The translations under genes and the position numbers were made by a program. A stretch of DNA of 64,000 nucleotides, taken from the NCBI GenBank assembly GCA_004322215.1, contig SCSM01000011.1, positions 186,001-250,000 of the forward strand, read 5' to 3'. Positions 35,265 to 57,752 of the stretch are shown here, piece by piece; within the stretch, counting starts at the first letter, position 1; each line of letters opens with the position of its first letter. The notes under the pieces were generated by a model. The model did no database searches. It was given only the letters and a program-made list of their open reading frames with translations, and was not told the origin of the DNA. Source of the DNA: Bacteroidota bacterium (GTDB lineage Bacteria; Bacteroidota; Ignavibacteria; Kapaibacteriales; UBA2268).

Positions 35265-38200
35265 ATGAAATTTAGAACTGCTTTTCTCACACTCATCATT
35301 TTGGGATTAATTTTTTATCATCAAAATGGGATTGCCCAATTCGGAATTAACAAAGTTCAATACCAGGATTTTAACTGGAAATACATGGAAACAAAGAATT
35401 TTGATGTATATTTTTATAATAATTCAAATTACCTTGCACATTTTGCAGCAGTAGAAGCAGAAAAGGCACTTAAATCAATTCAATTGTTTCTTAAATATAG
35501 GATTAACAGACGAGTACCTTTGATTGTATATAATTCTCACAATGAATTTCAGCAGACTAATGTTATTGGTTCTTACTTACCTGAAGGAGTTGGCGGAGTA
35601 ACAGAATTGTTCAAAAACCGTGTGGTAGTTCCATTTATGGGGGATTGGGAGCAATTCCGGCATGTGATACATCATGAGCTTGTTCATGCGGTGCTGAATG
35701 ATATGTTCTATGGCGGTACATTTCAATCGGCTATGACTACAGGGAACATGAAACAAATCCCGATTTGGATGAATGAAGGATTAGCGGAATATCTAAGTCA
35801 GTACGGATATGATTTACAAACCGATATGTTCATGAGGGATATTTCACTGAGTGAGAATCTCTATGGTGGATTAGAGAATCTGAACGGATACATGGCATAC
35901 CGTGGAGGACAAACTTTTTACTGGTATATTGCGGAAAAGTACGGGAAGGAAAGAATTTCGGATTTAATTAACAGGATGAGGATTTCGCCAAGCTTAAACA
36001 GTACATTTCAAAGTACATTTAATATGTCCTTTGAAGATTTTTCAGAGCAATGGGAAAAGGATTTGAAAAAGTATTATTGGCCCGATATAGATAAATTTCA
36101 GGCGGCAGAAACATTTTCTACGAGAATAACTAACCACAAAAAAGAATATAATTTTTATAATTCCTCACCTGCTATTTCACCCGACGGAGAGAAAATGGCA
36201 TACATCTCTGACGATGGAGGAGTATTGGGAGTTTACACAAGGTCGTTAGAGAAAAAAGGGGATAAACAGGAATTAGTATCTGCTTTGAGGGAACAGGATT
36301 TCGAGGAATTGAACCTACTGACCCCGGGTATATCATGGAATCCTAAGGGGACGCAATTAGCAATATCTGCCAAATCGGGTGGTGAGGATGCTATTTATAT
36401 CGTAAATGCAAAAAACGGTGATTATGAAAAATTGAAATTCGGTATTAAGTCGATTACTTCGGTTAACTGGTCACCCGATGGTAAATATCTTGCATTTATC
36501 GGGAGTCCCGGGGAAGAGACAGATATATACGTCTATAATATCGAAAAGAAGCAATTGCAAAATATTACAAACGATGTTTTCTCAGATAAAAATCCTGTTT
36601 GGTCTAATGATTCTAAAATGATTTATTTCATATCGGACAGAGGAGATAACACCACAGTTAATTATACCAAAGACAATTTTTTAATCTGGAAATTTGACTT
36701 CAAACAATCAGATATATACTCGCTGGAAATTGCAACGAAACAGGTAAAACGGATTACAAATAATCCCATGAATACTAAAACATCAATTGCATTATCAACG
36801 GATGGAAATAAATTGCTGTACGTTTCCGATGAAAACGGGATTGGCAACATATATGAAATGGGACTGAATACAGGAGAGATTAAACCAAAAACAAATTCTC
36901 TTTCTTCAATTTCCCAGCTCTCTTTATCAAAAGACGGCACTAAGCTGTTGTTCAGTTCTTTAACGGGCGGCGGTTATGATATATTCTTAATGAAATTCCC
37001 TTTCGATAAAGAAAATGTAAAAGATTCGTTACCTATGACAAAATTCAAATCGCAATTGTTAGAAAAAGAGAAGTTACATAAAGTGATTGCTGATACTTTA
37101 GCAAAGGACACAACAACTCAAACAGAACAGCATCTGACTAGTTATGGTGATTTTGAATTGGATTTTTCGAGGCAGGAACTTGTCAGGGCGAATCCTGATA
37201 TTGTCAATGACGATAATCAAATCGAAACGGACAAATCAGTAACCAATATAGAAGACCAAACATTTCCGGTTCATGATTACAAGATTAAATTCTCGATGGA
37301 TGCAGCAATGTTCAATCCCTGGTACAGCAGTTTCAACGGATTGCAAGGAGCAACACAAATGCTTTTCAGCGATATTCTTGGTGACCACCAGATTTATTTC
37401 CAGGCATATTTGTTGTCTGACATAAAAAACAGTTCATTCCTAATTCAGTATTCTTACCTGCCGAAAATAATTGATTATTCGTTCACGGCTTTTCATTACT
37501 CCGGTTGGGCATTCCAGCAATCATATTATTACAGGTTCAGGAATTGGGGAGTAACGCTCAACACATCATACCCTCTCGATCTGTTTAACCGATTTGAACT
37601 CGGTTTAAATTGGATGAATGTATCTAAAGAAAATATTAATTACCCAGGAACGGATGATGTAAACAGAATGTTAATTGTTCCTGAATTAAGATATGTTCAC
37701 GATAATGCTCTTTGGGCTGGTTTCGGACCTCACCAGGGCAGCAGGTATAGTGTCGGCGTCAAAGGTACACCAAAGTTAGGTTCCAAGGGTATTAGCTTTA
37801 TTACCTTCTCAGGTGATTTCAGACAATATGTGCCTGTAACAAATTATATGAGCTTGGCATTTCGTGCCGCAGGAGGTAAGAGTATTGGTGCCAATCCGAG
37901 AAATTTCTTTATAGGTGGAACAGATTACTGGATAAACGCTGAATGGCTGAATTTAAATTTACCGTCAATCGAGCCGGAGGATTTTGCATTCATGGAATTT
38001 CCTATGCCATTGCGCGGCTGGAAAATCGGTGAAAGAAAGGGTTCACAGTATTTTCTTACCAATGCAGAATTCAGATTCCCGTTATTCAGAGCATTATTAG
38101 CAGGGCCGATACCAATTTTGATACAGAATTTGCAGGGCTGCCTGTTTTTCGATATGGGAGGTGCCTGGTATGGTAATTTCTCTGATTTTAAAGCAGCGGT

Positions 38201-38369
38201 ACTGGATATTGACGGAACTTCCCAGGTAAATGACTTACTGATGAGTTCTGGTATTGGAATTAGGATGTACTTACTCGGTTTGCCACTCAAGATAGATGTG
38301 GCATGGAGAAACCTTTATTATGGCTGGTCGGAACCAACCTGGCTATTTTCACTCGGATACGATTGGTAA
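35265..38369 (+). CDS. Metalloprotease - TolB-like propeller - outer-membrane barrel fusion
   Basis: The 1034-residue protein has a signal peptide ending near NGIAQ. Residues about 30-260 form a gluzincin-type peptidase (Peptidase_MA-like) with the zinc motif HELVH at 137-141 and a downstream NEGLAEYL whose Glu171 is a plausible third ligand. Residues about 300-580 contain PD40/WD40-like repeats (ISPDGEKMAYISDDGG, WSPDGKYLAFIGSPG), a TolB-like propeller. Residues about 690-1034 are aromatic-rich beta strands ending in a surface-antigen-like barrel (LFSLGYDW). It is probably an outer-membrane protein with a periplasmic or surface protease module. The cleaved target is unknown. Confidence 0.8.
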   Translation: MKFRTAFLTLIILGLIFYHQNGIAQFGINKVQYQDFNWKYMETKNFDVYFYNNSNYLAHFAAVEAEKALKSIQLFLKYRINRRVPLIVYNSHNEFQQTNVIGSYLPEGVGGVTELFKNRVVVPFMGDWEQFRHVIHHELVHAVLNDMFYGGTFQSAMTTGNMKQIPIWMNEGLAEYLSQYGYDLQTDMFMRDISLSENLYGGLENLNGYMAYRGGQTFYWYIAEKYGKERISDLINRMRISPSLNSTFQSTFNMSFEDFSEQWEKDLKKYYWPDIDKFQAAETFSTRITNHKKEYNFYNSSPAISPDGEKMAYISDDGGVLGVYTRSLEKKGDKQELVSALREQDFEELNLLTPGISWNPKGTQLAISAKSGGEDAIYIVNAKNGDYEKLKFGIKSITSVNWSPDGKYLAFIGSPGEETDIYVYNIEKKQLQNITNDVFSDKNPVWSNDSKMIYFISDRGDNTTVNYTKDNFLIWKFDFKQSDIYSLEIATKQVKRITNNPMNTKTSIALSTDGNKLLYVSDENGIGNIYEMGLNTGEIKPKTNSLSSISQLSLSKDGTKLLFSSLTGGGYDIFLMKFPFDKENVKDSLPMTKFKSQLLEKEKLHKVIADTLAKDTTTQTEQHLTSYGDFELDFSRQELVRANPDIVNDDNQIETDKSVTNIEDQTFPVHDYKIKFSMDAAMFNPWYSSFNGLQGATQMLFSDILGDHQIYFQAYLLSDIKNSSFLIQYSYLPKIIDYSFTAFHYSGWAFQQSYYYRFRNWGVTLNTSYPLDLFNRFELGLNWMNVSKENINYPGTDDVNRMLIVPELRYVHDNALWAGFGPHQGSRYSVGVKGTPKLGSKGISFITFSGDFRQYVPVTNYMSLAFRAAGGKSIGANPRNFFIGGTDYWINAEWLNLNLPSIEPEDFAFMEFPMPLRGWKIGERKGSQYFLTNAEFRFPLFRALLAGPIPILIQNLQGCLFFDMGGAWYGNFSDFKAAVLDIDGTSQVNDLLMSSGIGIRMYLLGLPLKIDVAWRNLYYGWSEPTWLFSLGYDW

Positions 38370-38370
38370 A

Positions 38371-39567
38371 TTAATCCCGTACAAAAAGCATTCCTAAAAT
38401 AGGGTCAGATGAATTATGGGCTACTATTTTATCAATCAAGGATGCATTCAGTACTGCACCTGATGAAACTATTTTTATTCCTGAATTAGTATAAACATCT
38501 CTTGTAAGATTCATTCCATCCTGCATTTCATTCAGCATTATGGCTCTTTCTTTTATGCTTCCTTCAATGCCACCCCTGGAAGCAATATATTGTTCGATTA
38601 GTATTACAACCCTGTGGTCATAAAGTCGCTTTGATTCGGTATGCATCTTTTCTATAATCGTTTGAGCAGGTATTTTCCTGAATGTTCTTAATTCTTCGTA
38701 ATCGAGTGCCACCCTAATGATTCTTGATGCAATAGGTATTTGCCATGATTTTATATGCTCCGGAATCCCAGTGCCGTCAAAATTTTCATGAACATGATAT
38801 AAAATCTTAGCTGCCTGTTTAAGAATTCGGGCAGAAGAAAGTATTTCGTGGGCAAATACAGGAACCTGGTACATGAGATTATTAGCCGGGACACCATCAA
38901 CGAGCACAGAAGTTTTCAACATAGTATCGGGCAAGAATATTTTTCCGGTATAAGAGAGCAAAGCGGCAGTTTCAATATCATCAATCTCATCTTCTTCGAT
39001 GTCGCCAAAACTTTTAGCAATCCATTTCGATGTCTCGGCTACCCTCCTGAGCATTTCCACAGATGCAGGAAATCTCGACTGGCAAAATTTAAAAGCCAAT
39101 TCCTGGAAATCTTTTATATCCTGCTGTAGTTGTTCTGCAATATCGTTAAGTAACTGGCTATCGCCTGACATTCTACTTTGCAAATCAATAACCCTGAAAG
39201 CTATACCCAGTTTGGTTTTTAGTTCTTCCTCGACAAATGGTTTATTTATAAAATCATCTGCACCTTCCTGCAATGCAAGTGACCTTTGTGCCTTTTCAAT
39301 AATAGCTGTTAAAATGATAAAGTATGTCTCTTTGAACTCGTTGACCTCTCTTAATTTTTTACAAATTTGAATACCATTCATACCCGGAATGTTCAAATCG
39401 GAAATTATTAATTTTGGTTTATTATTTACTATTATTTCCCATCCGTCCCATCCGTCCACTGAAACATATATTACCGCTTCAGGATAAGCCTTTGCGATTA
39501 TAGCTTTCAAATATAATACAAGTGTTTTATCTTCAATTATCAGTAATATAGGTACTGTCTCTTCCAT
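38371..39567 (-). CDS. Response regulator with degenerate HD-GYP-like output domain
   Basis: The ATG at 39567 is preferred over a TTG at 39576, giving 398 residues. The receiver domain has the phospho-acceptor Asp57 (LIISDLNIPGMNG) and the conserved Lys109 (NKPF). The output domain resembles HD-GYP: KIFLPDTML and HENFDGTGIP align with the family. However, the HD dyad before GKI is replaced by Ser205-Tyr206 (LSYTGK), and GYP reads GIP. Since HD-GYP enzymes need those metal ligands to cleave c-di-GMP, this protein is probably a non-catalytic sensor or scaffold. Its stop codon is one base from the end of the convergent protease gene. Confidence 0.75.
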   Translation of the reverse strand: MEETVPILLIIEDKTLVLYLKAIIAKAYPEAVIYVSVDGWDGWEIIVNNKPKLIISDLNIPGMNGIQICKKLREVNEFKETYFIILTAIIEKAQRSLALQEGADDFINKPFVEEELKTKLGIAFRVIDLQSRMSGDSQLLNDIAEQLQQDIKDFQELAFKFCQSRFPASVEMLRRVAETSKWIAKSFGDIEEDEIDDIETAALLSYTGKIFLPDTMLKTSVLVDGVPANNLMYQVPVFAHEILSSARILKQAAKILYHVHENFDGTGIPEHIKSWQIPIASRIIRVALDYEELRTFRKIPAQTIIEKMHTESKRLYDHRVVILIEQYIASRGGIEGSIKERAIMLNEMQDGMNLTRDVYTNSGIKIVSSGAVLNASLIDKIVAHNSSDPILGMLFVRD

Positions 39568-39651
39568 ACATATCAAATATCAATTATGAATTATGAATCA
39601 TTTAATTAACTAATTACATTTAAAATTCAAAATCTGAAATTAAAATAAATT

Positions 39652-40578
39652 TTATTTTCCTGCTCTGTATTCTTCAGGGATGAAATCTTTTGCAGACATT
39701 TGTTTCACCAAAATACTAACTCTTCTGTTGGAAATATCAAACGGATTCCCGGTATTCCTTAGCCGTCGGTCAGCGTATCCGGTAACCTTTTCGACCTGCC
39801 CTTCCCAAAAGCCGTTTTCTTCGAGTATCCTTCTCGAAGCATTCGCCCTGTCCGAAGATAATTCCCAATTGGTATAAACATTACCTGTACCATATTTTCT
39901 GCTATCAGTGTGGCCTTCAATATCCACCTGGTTTGGTAATTTCCCAATTTCTTTAGCAATTCTAACCAATAATTCCATTGCTTTGGGCTTAACATTGGCA
40001 CTGCCGACTTCAAAAAACATAGACTCGGATGATTCAATCAATTCAATCCTCAATCCCTCCTTTGTCATTTCTATTTTAATGGATGAGAGTATATCTTTCA
40101 TATCAGGTTTAACAACTAACTGTTCTTTAATAAAGTTTTCAAATTCTTCTTTAATCTTTTCAACTCTTTTGGAAGCACTCGAACTGTCTTTGATTGCCTG
40201 TTGCCTGATTTTCTCGATTAACGAATCCTGTAATTCATTGCTCAACCAAAATACAAAGTTATCCTTCTTTTTTCCGCTATCCTGTCCGCCACCGCCTTCA
40301 CCCTCGTTTTTTGGCATAAGATTTAAATCAACAGGGACAGCTCTTTTGCCTGTAATATAGCTGAAAGCACCCGGGTCTTTGAAATAAGAAACAACCTGCT
40401 TTTTTATTTGCTCGCTCTGCCCTAAAATCCACATAACAATAAAGAAAGCCATCATAGCAGTAACGAAATCGGCATAAGCAACCTTCCACGCACCGCCATG
40501 ACCGCCATGACCGCCATGACCTTTTTTCTTCTTTATAATTATCGGTTCTTCTTTATGTTGCTTCTGTTCGGCAGCCAT
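39652..40578 (-). CDS. motB: MotB flagellar-type stator protein
   Basis: The ATG at 40578 is chosen; the TTG three codons upstream is less likely. The 308-residue protein has a cytoplasmic tail containing HGGHGGHGG and a single membrane helix with the proton-binding Asp37 (WKVAYADFVTAMMAFF). A linker follows, then a C-terminal OmpA-like peptidoglycan-binding domain with IEGHTDSRKYG and LSSDRANASRRIL. MotB pairs with MotA to form ion-driven stators. No flagellar gene lies in the window. It is 228 bases downstream of motA on the same strand. A role in a non-flagellar motor cannot be excluded. Confidence 0.88.
   Translation of the reverse strand: MAAEQKQHKEEPIIIKKKKGHGGHGGHGGAWKVAYADFVTAMMAFFIVMWILGQSEQIKKQVVSYFKDPGAFSYITGKRAVPVDLNLMPKNEGEGGGGQDSGKKKDNFVFWLSNELQDSLIEKIRQQAIKDSSSASKRVEKIKEEFENFIKEQLVVKPDMKDILSSIKIEMTKEGLRIELIESSESMFFEVGSANVKPKAMELLVRIAKEIGKLPNQVDIEGHTDSRKYGTGNVYTNWELSSDRANASRRILEENGFWEGQVEKVTGYADRRLRNTGNPFDISNRRVSILVKQMSAKDFIPEEYRAGK
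40492..40518 (-). repeat. Three-copy 9-bp repeat encoding HGG-HGG-HGG in MotB
   Basis: ACCGCCATG is repeated three times exactly and encodes the His-Gly-Gly triplet repeat just before the MotB membrane helix. Perfect DNA identity suggests recent expansion or slippage. Confidence 0.85.
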
Positions 40579-40806
40579 ACTAATCAATTACGAATTACTA
40601 ATTACGAATTAAAATAATTAACACATTTATACTCAAATTTCATTCTAAATAATCTCTTTATTATACTTTATAATTATTCAATAATTTATTTTTTTTGGGA
40701 TTATTGTTTAATGGTTTTAGAATGTTTAGCTCCTTAACCAAACATCTATCTGCCAAACACCTAATATCCTTAATTTTAAATTACGCATTATACATTTTTA
40801 CAATAA

Positions 40807-41670
40807 TTATGTTTTAGACTTTGTTTGTTTTATAGCGTCCTCTGTTTCTTTGAAGCTGGGTCTGTTCTCAGGGTCAATCGCTCTTCTTCCGTACTCGATT
40901 GCCACAGCTGCGGGTGCACCCTTCGCAAATGAAAGCAACGATGCCTTAATTGCCTGCATATACCTGCTCTCCTTTTGTACGATGTTATCCATATTCCTTG
41001 CAATAGGACCTACCAATCCGTAAGATAACAAAACACCAAGAAAAGTACCAACCAAAGCAGCCGCAACGTGATGTCCCACAGTTTCCGCTCCCTCGGATAT
41101 GGACTGCATTGTAATCACAACGCCAAGAACCGCAGCGACAATACCAAGTCCGGGGAAAGCATCAGCCATCGTACTCAAAGCAGCAGGTGCTACTAGCTCC
41201 TCTGCATGATGAGCTTCCAGGTCAATGTCCATCAATTCTTCCAAATCGTATGCCGGCACACCACCACTCAACACAACTTTCAGGGTATCGCACAGAAACT
41301 CCACCCCATGTTCATTTTCGAGAAAAGTCGGATACTTCGACAAAATCGAACTCGACTCCGGATTCTCAACATGCGACTCCAGTGCAATCAAACCCTCACG
41401 TTTCGCAAACTGAAAAATCTCATACAACAGCATCAATAATTCTACATAAGCCGTCTTATTCACTCTTGGGCCCTTAAGCGTCTGCAGAACTCCAGCTATA
41501 ATCTTTTTAATCGTTGCCATCGAATTCGCAATCACCAGCGAACCCACTGCCGCACCACCAATGATTATAAACTCGCTTATCTGCATCAGAACACCAATAT
41601 TACCACCTGCCATCAGGTAACCAGCCATCAATGCTCCGAATACTATTACAATCCCTACGATTACAAACAT
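40807..41670 (-). CDS. motA: MotA flagellar-type stator protein
   Basis: The 287-residue protein has four membrane segments: about 2-20 and 28-50, then a large cytoplasmic loop (about 60-150), then about 170-190 and 205-225. PGLGIVAAVLGVVITMQSIS is the third helix with the family's conserved Pro, and GTFLGVLLSYGLVGPIA is the fourth. EFIIIGGAAVGSLVI matches MotA rather than ExbB/TolQ, as does the length. It is followed by motB; the pair is the only motility-related unit in the window. Confidence 0.9.
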   Translation of the reverse strand: MFVIVGIVIVFGALMAGYLMAGGNIGVLMQISEFIIIGGAAVGSLVIANSMATIKKIIAGVLQTLKGPRVNKTAYVELLMLLYEIFQFAKREGLIALESHVENPESSSILSKYPTFLENEHGVEFLCDTLKVVLSGGVPAYDLEELMDIDLEAHHAEELVAPAALSTMADAFPGLGIVAAVLGVVITMQSISEGAETVGHHVAAALVGTFLGVLLSYGLVGPIARNMDNIVQKESRYMQAIKASLLSFAKGAPAAVAIEYGRRAIDPENRPSFKETEDAIKQTKSKT

Positions 41671-52192: not shown

Positions 52193-52550
52193 GGGGATGT
52201 AACGGATTCGACGGGGTGACTGAATCCACAAGCAGCATGTCGAGCTCAATCGGTGGCGCTCGTAAATTCAACCGGTAAATAAAAAACGCAGATTATAACT
52301 ACGCATTAGCTGCGTAATTCAAAAGGCAGCTAACATCCGGCAGAGATTGTGCCTGTCCGCTTTCTTTCGGGTGTCGCACTTAGACAGGATGGCTTGAATT
52401 AATTCTTCCGGGGTTCAAGCGAGATAAAGGGAGATAACGGTATGACTCCTGTCGTTTGGACAAGCATACTGCGAAAATCATAAAACGACTAAACATGTAG
52501 TGGCTTTGGGCGATGCTCTTCGGACGCGGGTTCAACTCCCGCCATCTCCA
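52193..52550 (+). ncRNA. ssrA: Transfer-messenger RNA (tmRNA)
   Basis: The 5' end GGGGATGTAACGGATTCGAC and the 3' end GGTTCAACTCCCGCC then CATCTCC are the hallmarks of the tRNA-like domain. GGGGATG (52193-52199) pairs with CATCTCC (52543-52549) as a 7-bp acceptor stem with one G-U. The discriminator A is at 52550; CCA is not encoded (CGA follows). The tag frame GCA...TAA (52288-52317) encodes ADYNYALAA, similar to the ADDYSYAMAA tag I recall for Chlorobium. The resume codon is inferred; if it lies upstream, the tag gains residues (KN). tmRNA rescues stalled ribosomes together with SmpB. Confidence 0.95.
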
Positions 52551-52578
52551 CGAATTTATCGGGATTTAATTATTAACT

Positions 52579-54909: not shown

Positions 54910-55239
54910 ATGAGAAGGGATGTTTTTCAGGCAATCGCCGACCCGAACAGAAGGGCGATTCTGGATTTATTAGTTACCCGGAAAATGACTCTAAATGAAA
55001 TAAGTGAGAATTTTAAAATAAGCAGACCGGCTGTATCAAAACATATAAAAATTCTTACAGAGTGTGGTTTAATCGAAATTGAAAAACAAGGCCGTCAGAG
55101 ATACTGCCGGGTAAAAATTGATAAACTAAATGACGTATCGAACTGGGTTGAAAGATACAGATTAATATGGGAAGAAAAATTAGATGCTTTGGAAAATTAC
55201 TTAAATGTTTTACAAAAAAAGGAGAAAAAAAATGTCTGA
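54910..55239 (+). CDS. ArsR-family transcriptional regulator (AHSA1-associated type)
   Basis: The 109-residue winged-helix protein has FQAIADPNRRAILDLLVTRK, MTLNEISENFKISRPAVSKH (recognition helix) and ECGLIEIEKQGRQRYCRVKI (wing). The metal-binding CxC of true arsenic regulators is missing; the only Cys are in ECGL and RYCR. Family members like this usually sit in front of SRPBCC genes, and here five follow. Its predicted operator lies on its own promoter. The stop overlaps the first AHSA1 gene by 8 bases, so the whole six-gene unit is probably co-regulated by an unknown ligand. Confidence 0.92.
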   Translation: MRRDVFQAIADPNRRAILDLLVTRKMTLNEISENFKISRPAVSKHIKILTECGLIEIEKQGRQRYCRVKIDKLNDVSNWVERYRLIWEEKLDALENYLNVLQKKEKKNV

Positions 55240-55759
55240 GATAAAACAAAACAATAATATTACAGCCACACCTGAATTCAAGGTTAGCAGATTAATAAAT
55301 GCACCACTGGAACTTGTTTGGAAGGTATGGACTAAACCTGAACATTTAAATCGTTGGTGGGGACCAAAAGGTTATACTATGCTGACAAACAAGCTCGATT
55401 TGAAACCGGGAGGTATATTCCATTATAAGATGAAATCTCCCGATGGGCAAATTATGTGGGGAAAGTTCGTTTTTCGGGAAATTATAGAATTAGAGAAGCT
55501 CGTCTTTGTTGTTTCATTTTCAGATGAATTCGGCAATATTTTGAGACATCCGCTCAGCATGACATGGCCCCTTGAGGTATTAAGCGCAGTATCATTTACA
55601 GAAAAAGAAGGTAAAACACTTCTTAGTATAAGTGGAATTCCGATTAACGCAACAAAAGAAGAAGAGAAAACATTTGCAGATGGACTCGAGAGTATGAATC
55701 AGGGCTGGAAAGGCACTTTTGAACAACTCGAGGAATATCTTAATAAAATTATTAACTAA
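55232..55759 (+). CDS. AHSA1/SRPBCC protein 1 of 5
   Basis: The start at 55232 (MSEIKQNNN) overlaps the ArsR stop; 175 residues. It is an Activator-of-Hsp90-ATPase-1-like START domain: INAPLELVWKVWTKPEHLNR, WWGPKGYT, LKPGGIFHYKMKSPDG and the C-terminal helix MNQGWKGTFEQLEEYL. AHSA1 domains bind hydrophobic ligands or act as small-molecule sensors or enzymes; no activity is known for this branch. It is the longest of the five, with an extra loop around LRHPLSMTWPLEV. Confidence 0.88.
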   Translation: MSEIKQNNNITATPEFKVSRLINAPLELVWKVWTKPEHLNRWWGPKGYTMLTNKLDLKPGGIFHYKMKSPDGQIMWGKFVFREIIELEKLVFVVSFSDEFGNILRHPLSMTWPLEVLSAVSFTEKEGKTLLSISGIPINATKEEEKTFADGLESMNQGWKGTFEQLEEYLNKIIN

Positions 55760-55791
55760 ATTATTTATCAATTTCAATTAGGAGAATCGAA

Positions 55792-56271
55792 ATGGAAAAT
55801 AAAATTGCTAACGAATTTACTATTATTCGTATGTTTGATGCTGCTCCTGAACTGGTTTGGAAGGCATGGACAGACCCGGAACAATATAAAAAATGGTGGG
55901 GACCAAAAAATTTCACTTGTCCTTTCAGCAAAATTGATTTGAAAGTTGGTGGGAAATACCTAAGCTGTATGCGTTCACCTGAAGGCATGGAATTTTGGAC
56001 AACCGGAATCTTTAAAGAAATAATTCCGATGAAGAGAATCGTTTATACCGATTGTTTTGCTGATGAGAATGGAAATGAAGTACCAGCTTCACATTATGGT
56101 ATGCCGGGGGATTGGCCCTCTGAATTAATAGTGAAAATAACACTTGAAGAAATTAACGGAAAGACAAAAATGACTTTGAGCCACACTGGAATTCCGGAAG
56201 GTGAGATGAGTGAAAATACTGTTATCGGATGGAACGAATCATTTGATAAACTTGTCGAGAGTTTAAAATAA
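55792..56271 (+). CDS. AHSA1/SRPBCC protein 2 of 5
   Basis: The 159-residue protein has FDAAPELVWKAWTDPEQYKK, WWGPKNFTCP, LKVGGKYLSCMRSPEGMEFW and LSHTGIPEGEMSENTVIGWN. The C-terminal helix WNESFDKLVESL closes the fold. An AGGAG site precedes the ATG. It has two Cys (FTCPF and LSCM) not shared with the other copies, and a third in YTDCFADENGN. Confidence 0.88.
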   Translation: MENKIANEFTIIRMFDAAPELVWKAWTDPEQYKKWWGPKNFTCPFSKIDLKVGGKYLSCMRSPEGMEFWTTGIFKEIIPMKRIVYTDCFADENGNEVPASHYGMPGDWPSELIVKITLEEINGKTKMTLSHTGIPEGEMSENTVIGWNESFDKLVESLK

Positions 56272-56303
56272 AAAATACTAGTGAATTAATTCAGGAGATA
56301 ATT

Positions 56304-56780
56304 ATGAACAAAACAAATATTATAGCAGAACCGGGTAAACAGGAAATTATAATTACAAGATTATTCGATGCACCGAGAGAACTAATATATAAAGTTATTA
56401 CTGACCCGATAAATATACCAAAGTGGTGGGGACCGAAATATTTAACTACTTTTGTTGATAAGATGGAAGTAATACCGGGTGGAATGTGGCGATATATACA
56501 ACATGATAAACAAGGAAATGAATTTACATTCCATGGATTTTATCATCAAATATCAAAACCTGAGCGGCTTGTTTATACATTTGAATTTGAAGGTATACCG
56601 GGGCATATTTTGCTTGAAACAATTACTTTTAAAGATATGAATGGTCAGACTATAATGACAGACAAATCTGTATTCCAATCGGTAGAAGACCGTGACGGTA
56701 TGCTTCAGTCAGGTATGGAAACCGGGGCTGATGAGACAATGGAACGATTAAATGAACTTTTACATTCTATCAAACAATGA
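56304..56780 (+). CDS. AHSA1/SRPBCC protein 3 of 5
   Basis: The 158-residue protein has FDAPRELIYKVITDPINIPK, WWGPKYLTTFVDKMEVIPGG and MWRYIQHDKQGNEFTFHGFY, ending with a DGMLQSGMETGADETMERL helix. This pattern matches the AHSA1 subgroup often annotated as DUF1857/ATPase-like in environmental bacteria. An AGGAG site lies 8 bases before the ATG. It sits 32 bases after copy 2. Confidence 0.88.
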   Translation: MNKTNIIAEPGKQEIIITRLFDAPRELIYKVITDPINIPKWWGPKYLTTFVDKMEVIPGGMWRYIQHDKQGNEFTFHGFYHQISKPERLVYTFEFEGIPGHILLETITFKDMNGQTIMTDKSVFQSVEDRDGMLQSGMETGADETMERLNELLHSIKQ

Positions 56781-56807
56781 TTTTAATAAATTTTATAGGA
56801 GAATTTA

Positions 56808-57281
56808 ATGAAAACAAAATATGAAGGCATTGAAATAATTAATGAAAAAGAATTCTTTGCCACACGCATTTTGAATGCGCCAAGGGAAATTGTTTGGAAA
56901 GTATGGACAGAACCTGAACATATTGCGAAATGGTGGGGACCGTCAGGCTTTACTAATACAGTTGAAATTATGGATGTGAAACCGGGAGGAAAATGGAAAT
57001 TTAATATGCATGGTCCCGATGGTGTTGATTATCCAAACATAATTAATTACATCGAAGTCAAAAAACCTGAACTATTGGTTTATAATCATGGTGATGAAGA
57101 AAACCCAGCATTTTTTCATGTAACTGTCAGGTTCGAAGATTTGGAAAATAAAACAAAGCTCGTATGGAATTCTGTTTTTAATTCTGCTGAACAATTGAAA
57201 AAAGTAATTGATGAACACAATGCATTAGAAGGATTAAAACAGAATATTGATAAACTTGAAAAATATTTGGAGAATTTATAA
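56808..57281 (+). CDS. AHSA1/SRPBCC protein 4 of 5
   Basis: The 157-residue protein has LNAPREIVWKVWTEPEHIAK, WWGPSGFTNTVEIMDVKPGG and KWKFNMHGPDGVDYPNIINY; the C-terminal helix is ALEGLKQNIDKLEKYLENL. It is closest by eye to copy 1 in the N-terminal half (WKVWTxPEH and KPGG are shared). AGGAG precedes the ATG. Confidence 0.88.
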   Translation: MKTKYEGIEIINEKEFFATRILNAPREIVWKVWTEPEHIAKWWGPSGFTNTVEIMDVKPGGKWKFNMHGPDGVDYPNIINYIEVKKPELLVYNHGDEENPAFFHVTVRFEDLENKTKLVWNSVFNSAEQLKKVIDEHNALEGLKQNIDKLEKYLENL

Positions 57282-57311
57282 ATAATAATAAATAAATATA
57301 AAAGGAAAGTT

Positions 57312-57752
57312 ATGGGAAATAATTCATTAATAGTAAAACGAGAGTATAACGCTTCAATAGAAAAAGTCTGGGATGCAATCACAAATATTGAAAAAATGAA
57401 GTCCTGGTATATGCCAGAACTCAAAAATTTTCTACCGGTTGTTGGATTTCAAACAGAATTTTCAATGACACATGAGGGAAAGGTTTTCCCTCATATTTGG
57501 AAAGTAACTGAAGTTATTCCAAAAGAGAAAATCAGTTATGAATGGCGTTACAAGGGCTATCCCGGCAATTCATTAGTTACTTTTGATTTGCAATCCGAAG
57601 GAAACAAAACTAATTTAACACTTACTCATAGTGGTTTGGAAACATTCCAACCCGAGAAATATCCCGAATTGGACAGAAAACAATTCGAGGAAGGATGGAA
57701 CTCATTGCTCAACGATTTATTGGTGAAATTTTTAGAATCAAATTCTGATTAA
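57312..57752 (+). CDS. AHSA1/SRPBCC protein 5 of 5 (divergent)
   Basis: The 146-residue protein keeps the fold pattern: YNASIEKVWDAITNIEKMKS, a TEFSMTHEGKVFPHIWKVTE strand pair, the EWRYKGYPGNSLVTFDLQSE strands and the final EEGWNSLLNDLLVKFLESNS helix. It lacks the WWGP motif of copies 1-4 (SWYMPEL instead) and therefore probably belongs to a different AHSA1 subfamily. An AAAGGAAAG site precedes the ATG. It is the last gene of the operon before a hairpin. Confidence 0.85.
   Translation: MGNNSLIVKREYNASIEKVWDAITNIEKMKSWYMPELKNFLPVVGFQTEFSMTHEGKVFPHIWKVTEVIPKEKISYEWRYKGYPGNSLVTFDLQSEGNKTNLTLTHSGLETFQPEKYPELDRKQFEEGWNSLLNDLLVKFLESNSD

Follow-up and report, generated by a model that had tools for sequence, protein, structure and literature searches.

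A WD40-Omp85 protein of Bacteroidota with an added metalloprotease domain, and its gene neighbourhood

What does a protein do in which a metalloprotease, a TolB-like propeller and an outer-membrane barrel form one chain, and which of its parts carries the function that is kept? The question is raised by a gene in the 64,000-nt stretch of DNA analysed here (the window), which comes from a Bacteroidota bacterium (GCA_004322215.1, contig SCSM01000011.1, positions 186,001-250,000, forward strand). The original prediction took the protease to be the main activity and the barrel to be its holder at the outer membrane. The following sections describe the protein, the genes found beside it in its relatives and the fate of its zinc site, and weigh the functions that can be proposed for it.

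Domain layout and distribution

The gene occupies positions 35265..38369 of the plus strand, on which its domains are numbered below, and encodes 1034 residues in a single open reading frame that starts with ATG; the reverse strand of the same stretch is full of stop codons. A chance or frameshift origin of the frame has been ruled out. The fusion is not accidental, since full-length relatives with the same domain order occur in the class and in the wider phylum and, of 74 distinct homologues in the first collection, 72 retain HExxH. The predicted order (protease, propeller, barrel) is borne out by Pfam models that cover all three parts above their cut-offs. The genome holds one full-length copy, and the three further matches in it are short and located in the propeller.

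Residues 1-24 (35265..35336) form a putative Sec signal peptide, recognised by eye, with cleavage at GIA-Q and without a lipobox; bearing on the cleavage site, AQ precedes FGKN in the consensus of the relatives. The peptidase MA or gluzincin domain follows at residues 26-285 (35340..36119), and Peptidase_MA_2 (PF13485) matches residues 79-267 (E 1.3e-8; 35.4 bits, cut-off 32.4). The zinc ligands named at the outset, H137, E138, H141 and E171, are correctly numbered: HELVH spans residues 137-141 and E171 lies within NEGLAEY.

The propeller extends over residues 286-580 (36120..37004), where PD40 (PF07676) matches in five stretches (E 2.2e-25) and six SPDG-like motifs (residues 305, 359, 403, 447, 511 and 555) suggest six blades, the number present in the TolB propeller. 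Searched by sequence, the PDB gives TolB chains as its best matches, in agreement with the TolB-like propeller first described. Its score against the TolB equivalog TIGR02800 (135.3 bits) lies below the cut-off of 343.15 and, unlike TolB, the protein also carries a protease and a barrel. PF13485 and PD40 are both found in 30/30 relatives scanned whole (E 1e-3).

A linker (residues 581-668, 37005..37268) separates the propeller from the barrel; it is poorly conserved and contains the largest insertions of the 75-sequence alignment. No POTRA family match was obtained in the full-length or C-terminal Pfam scans, the linker included, or in the C-termini of the relatives. PF00149, a metallophosphoesterase family, is likewise absent from the Pfam matches of the full-length and C-terminal scans of the window protein.

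The C-terminal residues 669-1034 (37269..38366), ending in LFSLGYDW, are predicted to be an Omp85 barrel of the outer membrane, its closure and topology being assigned by homology. Scanned by itself, the C-terminus matches PF01103 over residues 749-1032 (E 1.3e-11; 45 bits, cut-off 24); the match is missed when the full-length protein is scanned, and the genome search gave 43.2 bits. In the relatives, PF01103 is found in 9 of 30 proteins scanned whole and in 18 of 34 C-termini scanned alone (E 1e-3). The sequence LRGW (916-919) contains [VLI]RG, the L6 motif of the Omp85 superfamily: R917 is present in 75/75 aligned sequences and G918 in 99%, and many further barrel positions are invariant. 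An outer-membrane barrel at the C-terminus had been foreseen, and both the PF01103 score and the invariant L6 arginine uphold it. The AlphaFold mean pLDDT was 29.2 for the whole protein, obtained with a two-row alignment, and 26.9 for the barrel; an amphipathicity-based strand count gave 19, against a shuffled-column mean of 17.1 (sd 1.8).

The fusion is widespread and not peculiar to this genome. A search of 296 genomes sampled evenly across the phylum gave matches (E 1e-3) in 275; some of these matches are propeller repeats only, and many of the weaker ones are of this kind, as in the tested members of families f24, f25 and f28. Viral contigs scanned with a 30-row alignment gave 29 pattern matches and 0 relatives.

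The remainder of the window contains a tmRNA (52193-52551, tag ADYNYALAA), the sole gathering-level Rfam match; no other tRNA or tmRNA gene was found in the 64 kb. At 55205-57752 five consecutive short ORFs seem to be members of a repeated family, judged AHSA1/SRPBCC-like from reading only, and are apparently a tandem expansion.

Affinities of the barrel and the tamB-rnr neighbourhood

Omp85 proteins build the outer membrane, and the members that have been studied function mostly in outer-membrane assembly or translocation. The barrel was compared, as a 34-row profile, with four sets of Omp85 proteins drawn from the same genomes. The closest was the TamL/TamA-like POTRA-Omp85 set (E 1.9e-16), followed by a second POTRA-Omp85 type (5.5e-14), BamA (3.9e-11) and the patatin-Omp85 proteins (2.4e-5, the weakest of the four), a ranking that is rough because the comparison alignments are small (12, 4, 8 and 3 sequences). 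In a plain HMM search the order was similar but the sets overlapped: two of the eight BamAs (8e-6 and 4e-4) scored above several TamL-like barrels. The labels were checked with Pfam on 17 of the 27 comparison proteins: POTRA and Omp85 were found in the scanned TamL-like and second-type proteins, more POTRA stretches (4 or 5) in the scanned BamAs, and patatin with Omp85 in all three patatin-Omp85 proteins. These comparisons are suggestive of a barrel that leans to the TAM type over BamA. The other Omp85 proteins of the window genome, at L103:3748-6174, L104:5660-7978, L105:5567-8287 and L106:5416-7104, are a BamA, in which five POTRA stretches were found, a POTRA-Omp85 of 772 aa, a patatin-POTRA-Omp85 and a short Omp85 of 562 aa.

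Gene clustering over 61 loci identified RNase R and TamB as the commonest neighbours (23 loci each), and Pfam scans of one neighbour of each kind gave PF00773 at E 5e-115 and PF04357 at E 1.9e-27, respectively. TamB is an inner-membrane-anchored periplasmic protein that bridges the two membranes. Sixty loci were picked from the matches listed in the phylum search so that they would be spread across families, and the gene was called in 58 of those fetched; the two others (L093 and L095), where the ORF picker probably preferred an overlapping frame, have neither tamB nor rnr. Upstream of the gene and on its strand, tamB is found in 23/58 loci, rnr in 23/58 and both, in the order tamB-rnr-gene, in 21/58; these loci were chosen for their spread, so 23/58 is not a population frequency. 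The tamB-linked loci belong to 11 families. The gap from rnr to the gene has a median of 26 bp (≤100 bp in 19/23) and that from tamB to rnr, with or without the gene, a median of 10 bp (≤100 bp in 27/29). Such spacing looks like that of an operon, and in many relatives the three genes may form a single one. The linkage to tamB is seen in 0/13 loci of the window's own order and in 0/20 more distant loci, and is absent in L005; in the window genome the one TamB match stands alone on a different contig.

Other neighbours were recorded as well. In the window, ORFs that from reading look like a response regulator and then MotB and MotA occupy 38371-41670, directly convergent to the gene, and a related response regulator also comes after the gene in L005. 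A gene like the T9SS plug is found downstream on the opposite strand (convergent) in 8/61 loci (L073, L074, L075, L076, L078, L079, L090 and L091), PF17116 being confirmed in L073 only. Clustering places trigger factor downstream in seven loci (L089, L093, L094, L096, L097, L099 and L100) and ClpP in six of these, both Pfam-confirmed for L089 only.

Two TamBs are present in each of four genomes (G191, G042, G274 and G223): one overlaps or abuts a POTRA-Omp85 gene, and the other stands beside rnr and the protease-propeller-Omp85 gene. POTRA was found in all six TamB-adjacent Omp85s that were scanned. The genomes in question also carry POTRA-Omp85s that could serve TamB, a point against its partnership with the protease-propeller-Omp85 protein. 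A tree was calculated from 54 TamB C-termini. Five of its six POTRA-linked TamBs are united in a single clade (100/100 support), and the sixth (L116) falls outside it on a long branch. The other side of this tree holds 23 TamBs linked to the protease-propeller-Omp85 gene, 8 linked to rnr only and 17 unlinked, among them that of the window genome. Here 28 genomes that are more distant and have weaker matches, together with their kin, are called Bacteroidia-type. With 26 Bacteroidia-type TamBs added and the others thinned to 31 rows, the basal support is gone (SH-aLRT 8); a partner TamB clade that spans the whole phylum was rejected on account of this unsupported backbone. TamB was found in 16/16 Bacteroidia-type genomes searched, eight of which have no detected full-length protease-propeller-Omp85 gene (seven by profile search, and G103 by single-sequence search only, with a best E of 1e-8). 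An obligate partnership was consequently rejected as well, since all eight have TamB.

The strongest alternative builds on this last point. It holds that the protein is an independent Omp85 insertase or translocase, resembling a fusion of BamA and BamB and with no special tie to TamB, and that tamB-rnr-gene is an inherited housekeeping cluster. Inheritance may account in part for the conserved order, RNase R being encoded by a housekeeping gene; the tamB-rnr pair occurs without the protease-propeller-Omp85 gene for 8 of the 54 TamBs, TamB is present with or without that gene, and linkage is absent both from the window's own order and from the 20 more distant loci. Against it stand the tight same-strand spacing across 11 families and a barrel somewhat nearer to the TAM-type than to the BamA profiles, which leave this alternative on the doubtful side.

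The zinc site and its loss

The residues around the zinc site are highly conserved in the alignment of 75 sequences (P0001 included), in which W38, E138, E171 and G215 are invariant. In a larger set of 102 sequences, made up of the earlier homologues, the 20 more distant loci and 7 second copies, H-E-H-E occupies the four ligand positions in 85 and is absent in 17. A tree of 66 of these sequences, calculated with the zinc-site columns left out, places the losses at two sites, each with SH-aLRT 100: one is a clade of 15 rows from six families (f23, f32, f34, f35, f36 and f43) and the other consists of G283 and G275, which belong to one genus of the window's own order. By this sequence evidence the zinc site has been lost at least two times, with the architecture and the conservation of the barrel retained. 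Four genomes of family f32 (G064, G158, G162 and G037) combine a zinc-less copy with a second, zinc-bearing copy that belongs to a separate clade and differs at its C-terminus. This clade, represented by ten loci (L144-L146, L148, L150-L154 and L175), shares the architecture and carries GHE[LM]VHxFQ, mostly GHELVHxFQ; its C-terminus ends in PGW in most rows.

Barrel residues, including the L6 Arg-Gly, are invariant in 34 C-termini, four of them zinc-less. The persistence of the remaining protein and of the barrel motifs in two lineages without a zinc site suggests that the barrel, and not the protease, provides the constant function, with proteolysis as an option. Loss of the site in orthologues had been named as an outcome that would count against the original prediction, and it is seen in part of the family, most members having kept the site intact.

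That prediction, in which the protease is the main function, the barrel is a passive tether and the propeller binds substrate or peptidoglycan, draws on the 85 of 102 sequences that keep the zinc site, on the high conservation of the neighbouring residues and on the closeness of the propeller to TolB. It is difficult to reconcile with a barrel that belongs to the Omp85 family, which is no generic anchor, and with the 17 sequences in two lineages that dispensed with the ligands and kept the architecture and the barrel motifs. The role of the barrel as a mere holder of the protease is accordingly given up here, and this reading as a whole is judged unlikely.

Known systems and proposed function

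The closest described group is the WD40-Omp85 subfamily, which was named by Heinz and Lithgow in 2014 and likened to a fusion of BamA and BamB (PMC4104836). Like its members, the window protein has a propeller nearest to TolB, followed by an Omp85 barrel, and no POTRA match; it differs in its added protease and, in many relatives, in its link to tamB. The section that describes the subfamily gives it neither a protease nor a link to TamB, and the 'Metallo' or 'metalloprotease' Omp85 subfamily of the same study is defined by PF00149 (PMC4104836). The part of that article compared names Ignavibacteria as one of the groups that are poorly sampled and in which Omp85 diversity is expanded (PMC4104836). 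WD40 is absent from the portions compared of the main texts on the evolution of TAM (PMC4494059) and on TamL (PMC12045153), and the 2024 PlpD paper, as excerpted, names metalloprotease Omp85s and WD40-like Omp85s as types that have not been characterised well (PMC11116518). Among the literature matches listed, titles and abstract openings describe neither the three-domain protein nor a tamB-rnr operon. From this comparison with the compared parts of the literature, the protein is classed, on its sequence, as a WD40-Omp85 with an added protease domain and a gene context not found described; what is new here is the tamB linkage in the chosen loci and the repeated loss of the zinc site with the barrel conserved.

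Other systems resemble it in part. TamA and TamL share the Omp85 barrel and, with many relatives, a tamB gene as neighbour; the window protein has a protease and a propeller in addition and shows no match to their POTRA, rnr intervenes in the loci of the relatives, and the window genome is unlinked to tamB. PlpD-type patatin-Omp85 proteins also carry an enzyme N-terminal to the barrel, with patatin and POTRA in place of gluzincin and propeller, and theirs is the barrel of weakest similarity. BepA, which carries TPR repeats, is a periplasmic zinc protease, as the protease domain is predicted to be, and differs in being a separate protein of another peptidase family, unfused to a barrel. It is described, in the source as excerpted, as an M48 protease of E. 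coli that promotes the maturation or degradation of LptD (PMC8423444). BepA thereby shows that outer-membrane proteins can be assembled and degraded with the help of a zinc protease, which for the window protein is a precedent by analogy only.

Transport of the protease to the cell surface by the barrel, a role first proposed for patatin-Omp85 enzyme fusions (PMC4104836), is very improbable, the enzyme domain of PlpD having later been located only in the periplasm in the excerpted report (PMC11116518). PlpD thus offers, by analogy, a precedent for an Omp85-fused enzyme that can stay periplasmic.

The reading preferred here, with a probability of roughly 0.4, is that of a POTRA-less, TAM-associated WD40-Omp85 factor for outer-membrane assembly or lipid transfer, with a built-in and dispensable periplasmic protease for quality control. 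The protein would be exported by Sec, and by homology its barrel would reside in the outer membrane and its protease and propeller in the periplasm. Production together with TamB is possibly the ancestral arrangement. Barrel and TamB, presumably in contact, would insert outer-membrane proteins or deliver lipid, as TamA and TamL do, the TolB-like propeller taking the place of the POTRA domains as a docking arm. The gluzincin domain may trim or destroy stalled or misfolded clients at that site, like BepA at the BAM of E. coli, and would be an accessory, inactivated in some lineages. A more far-reaching form of the preferred reading, which is proposed tentatively, sees a translocation and assembly module of a third kind, in which a protease and a TolB-like propeller stand in for POTRA in the partner of TamB; one polypeptide would then combine insertion or lipid delivery with the destruction of clients, and whole lineages would later have made a pseudoenzyme of the protease.

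All 72 relatives from the same family, order or class among the matches listed match strongly (weakest E 2.4e-129), though the compared parts of the literature give no tested function for the WD40-Omp85 class. The protease domain and the putative tamB operon provide a concrete and testable lead on these proteins, and the naturally zinc-dead orthologues separate the function of the barrel from proteolysis. If the preferred reading is true, a single molecule can carry out both outer-membrane assembly and quality control.
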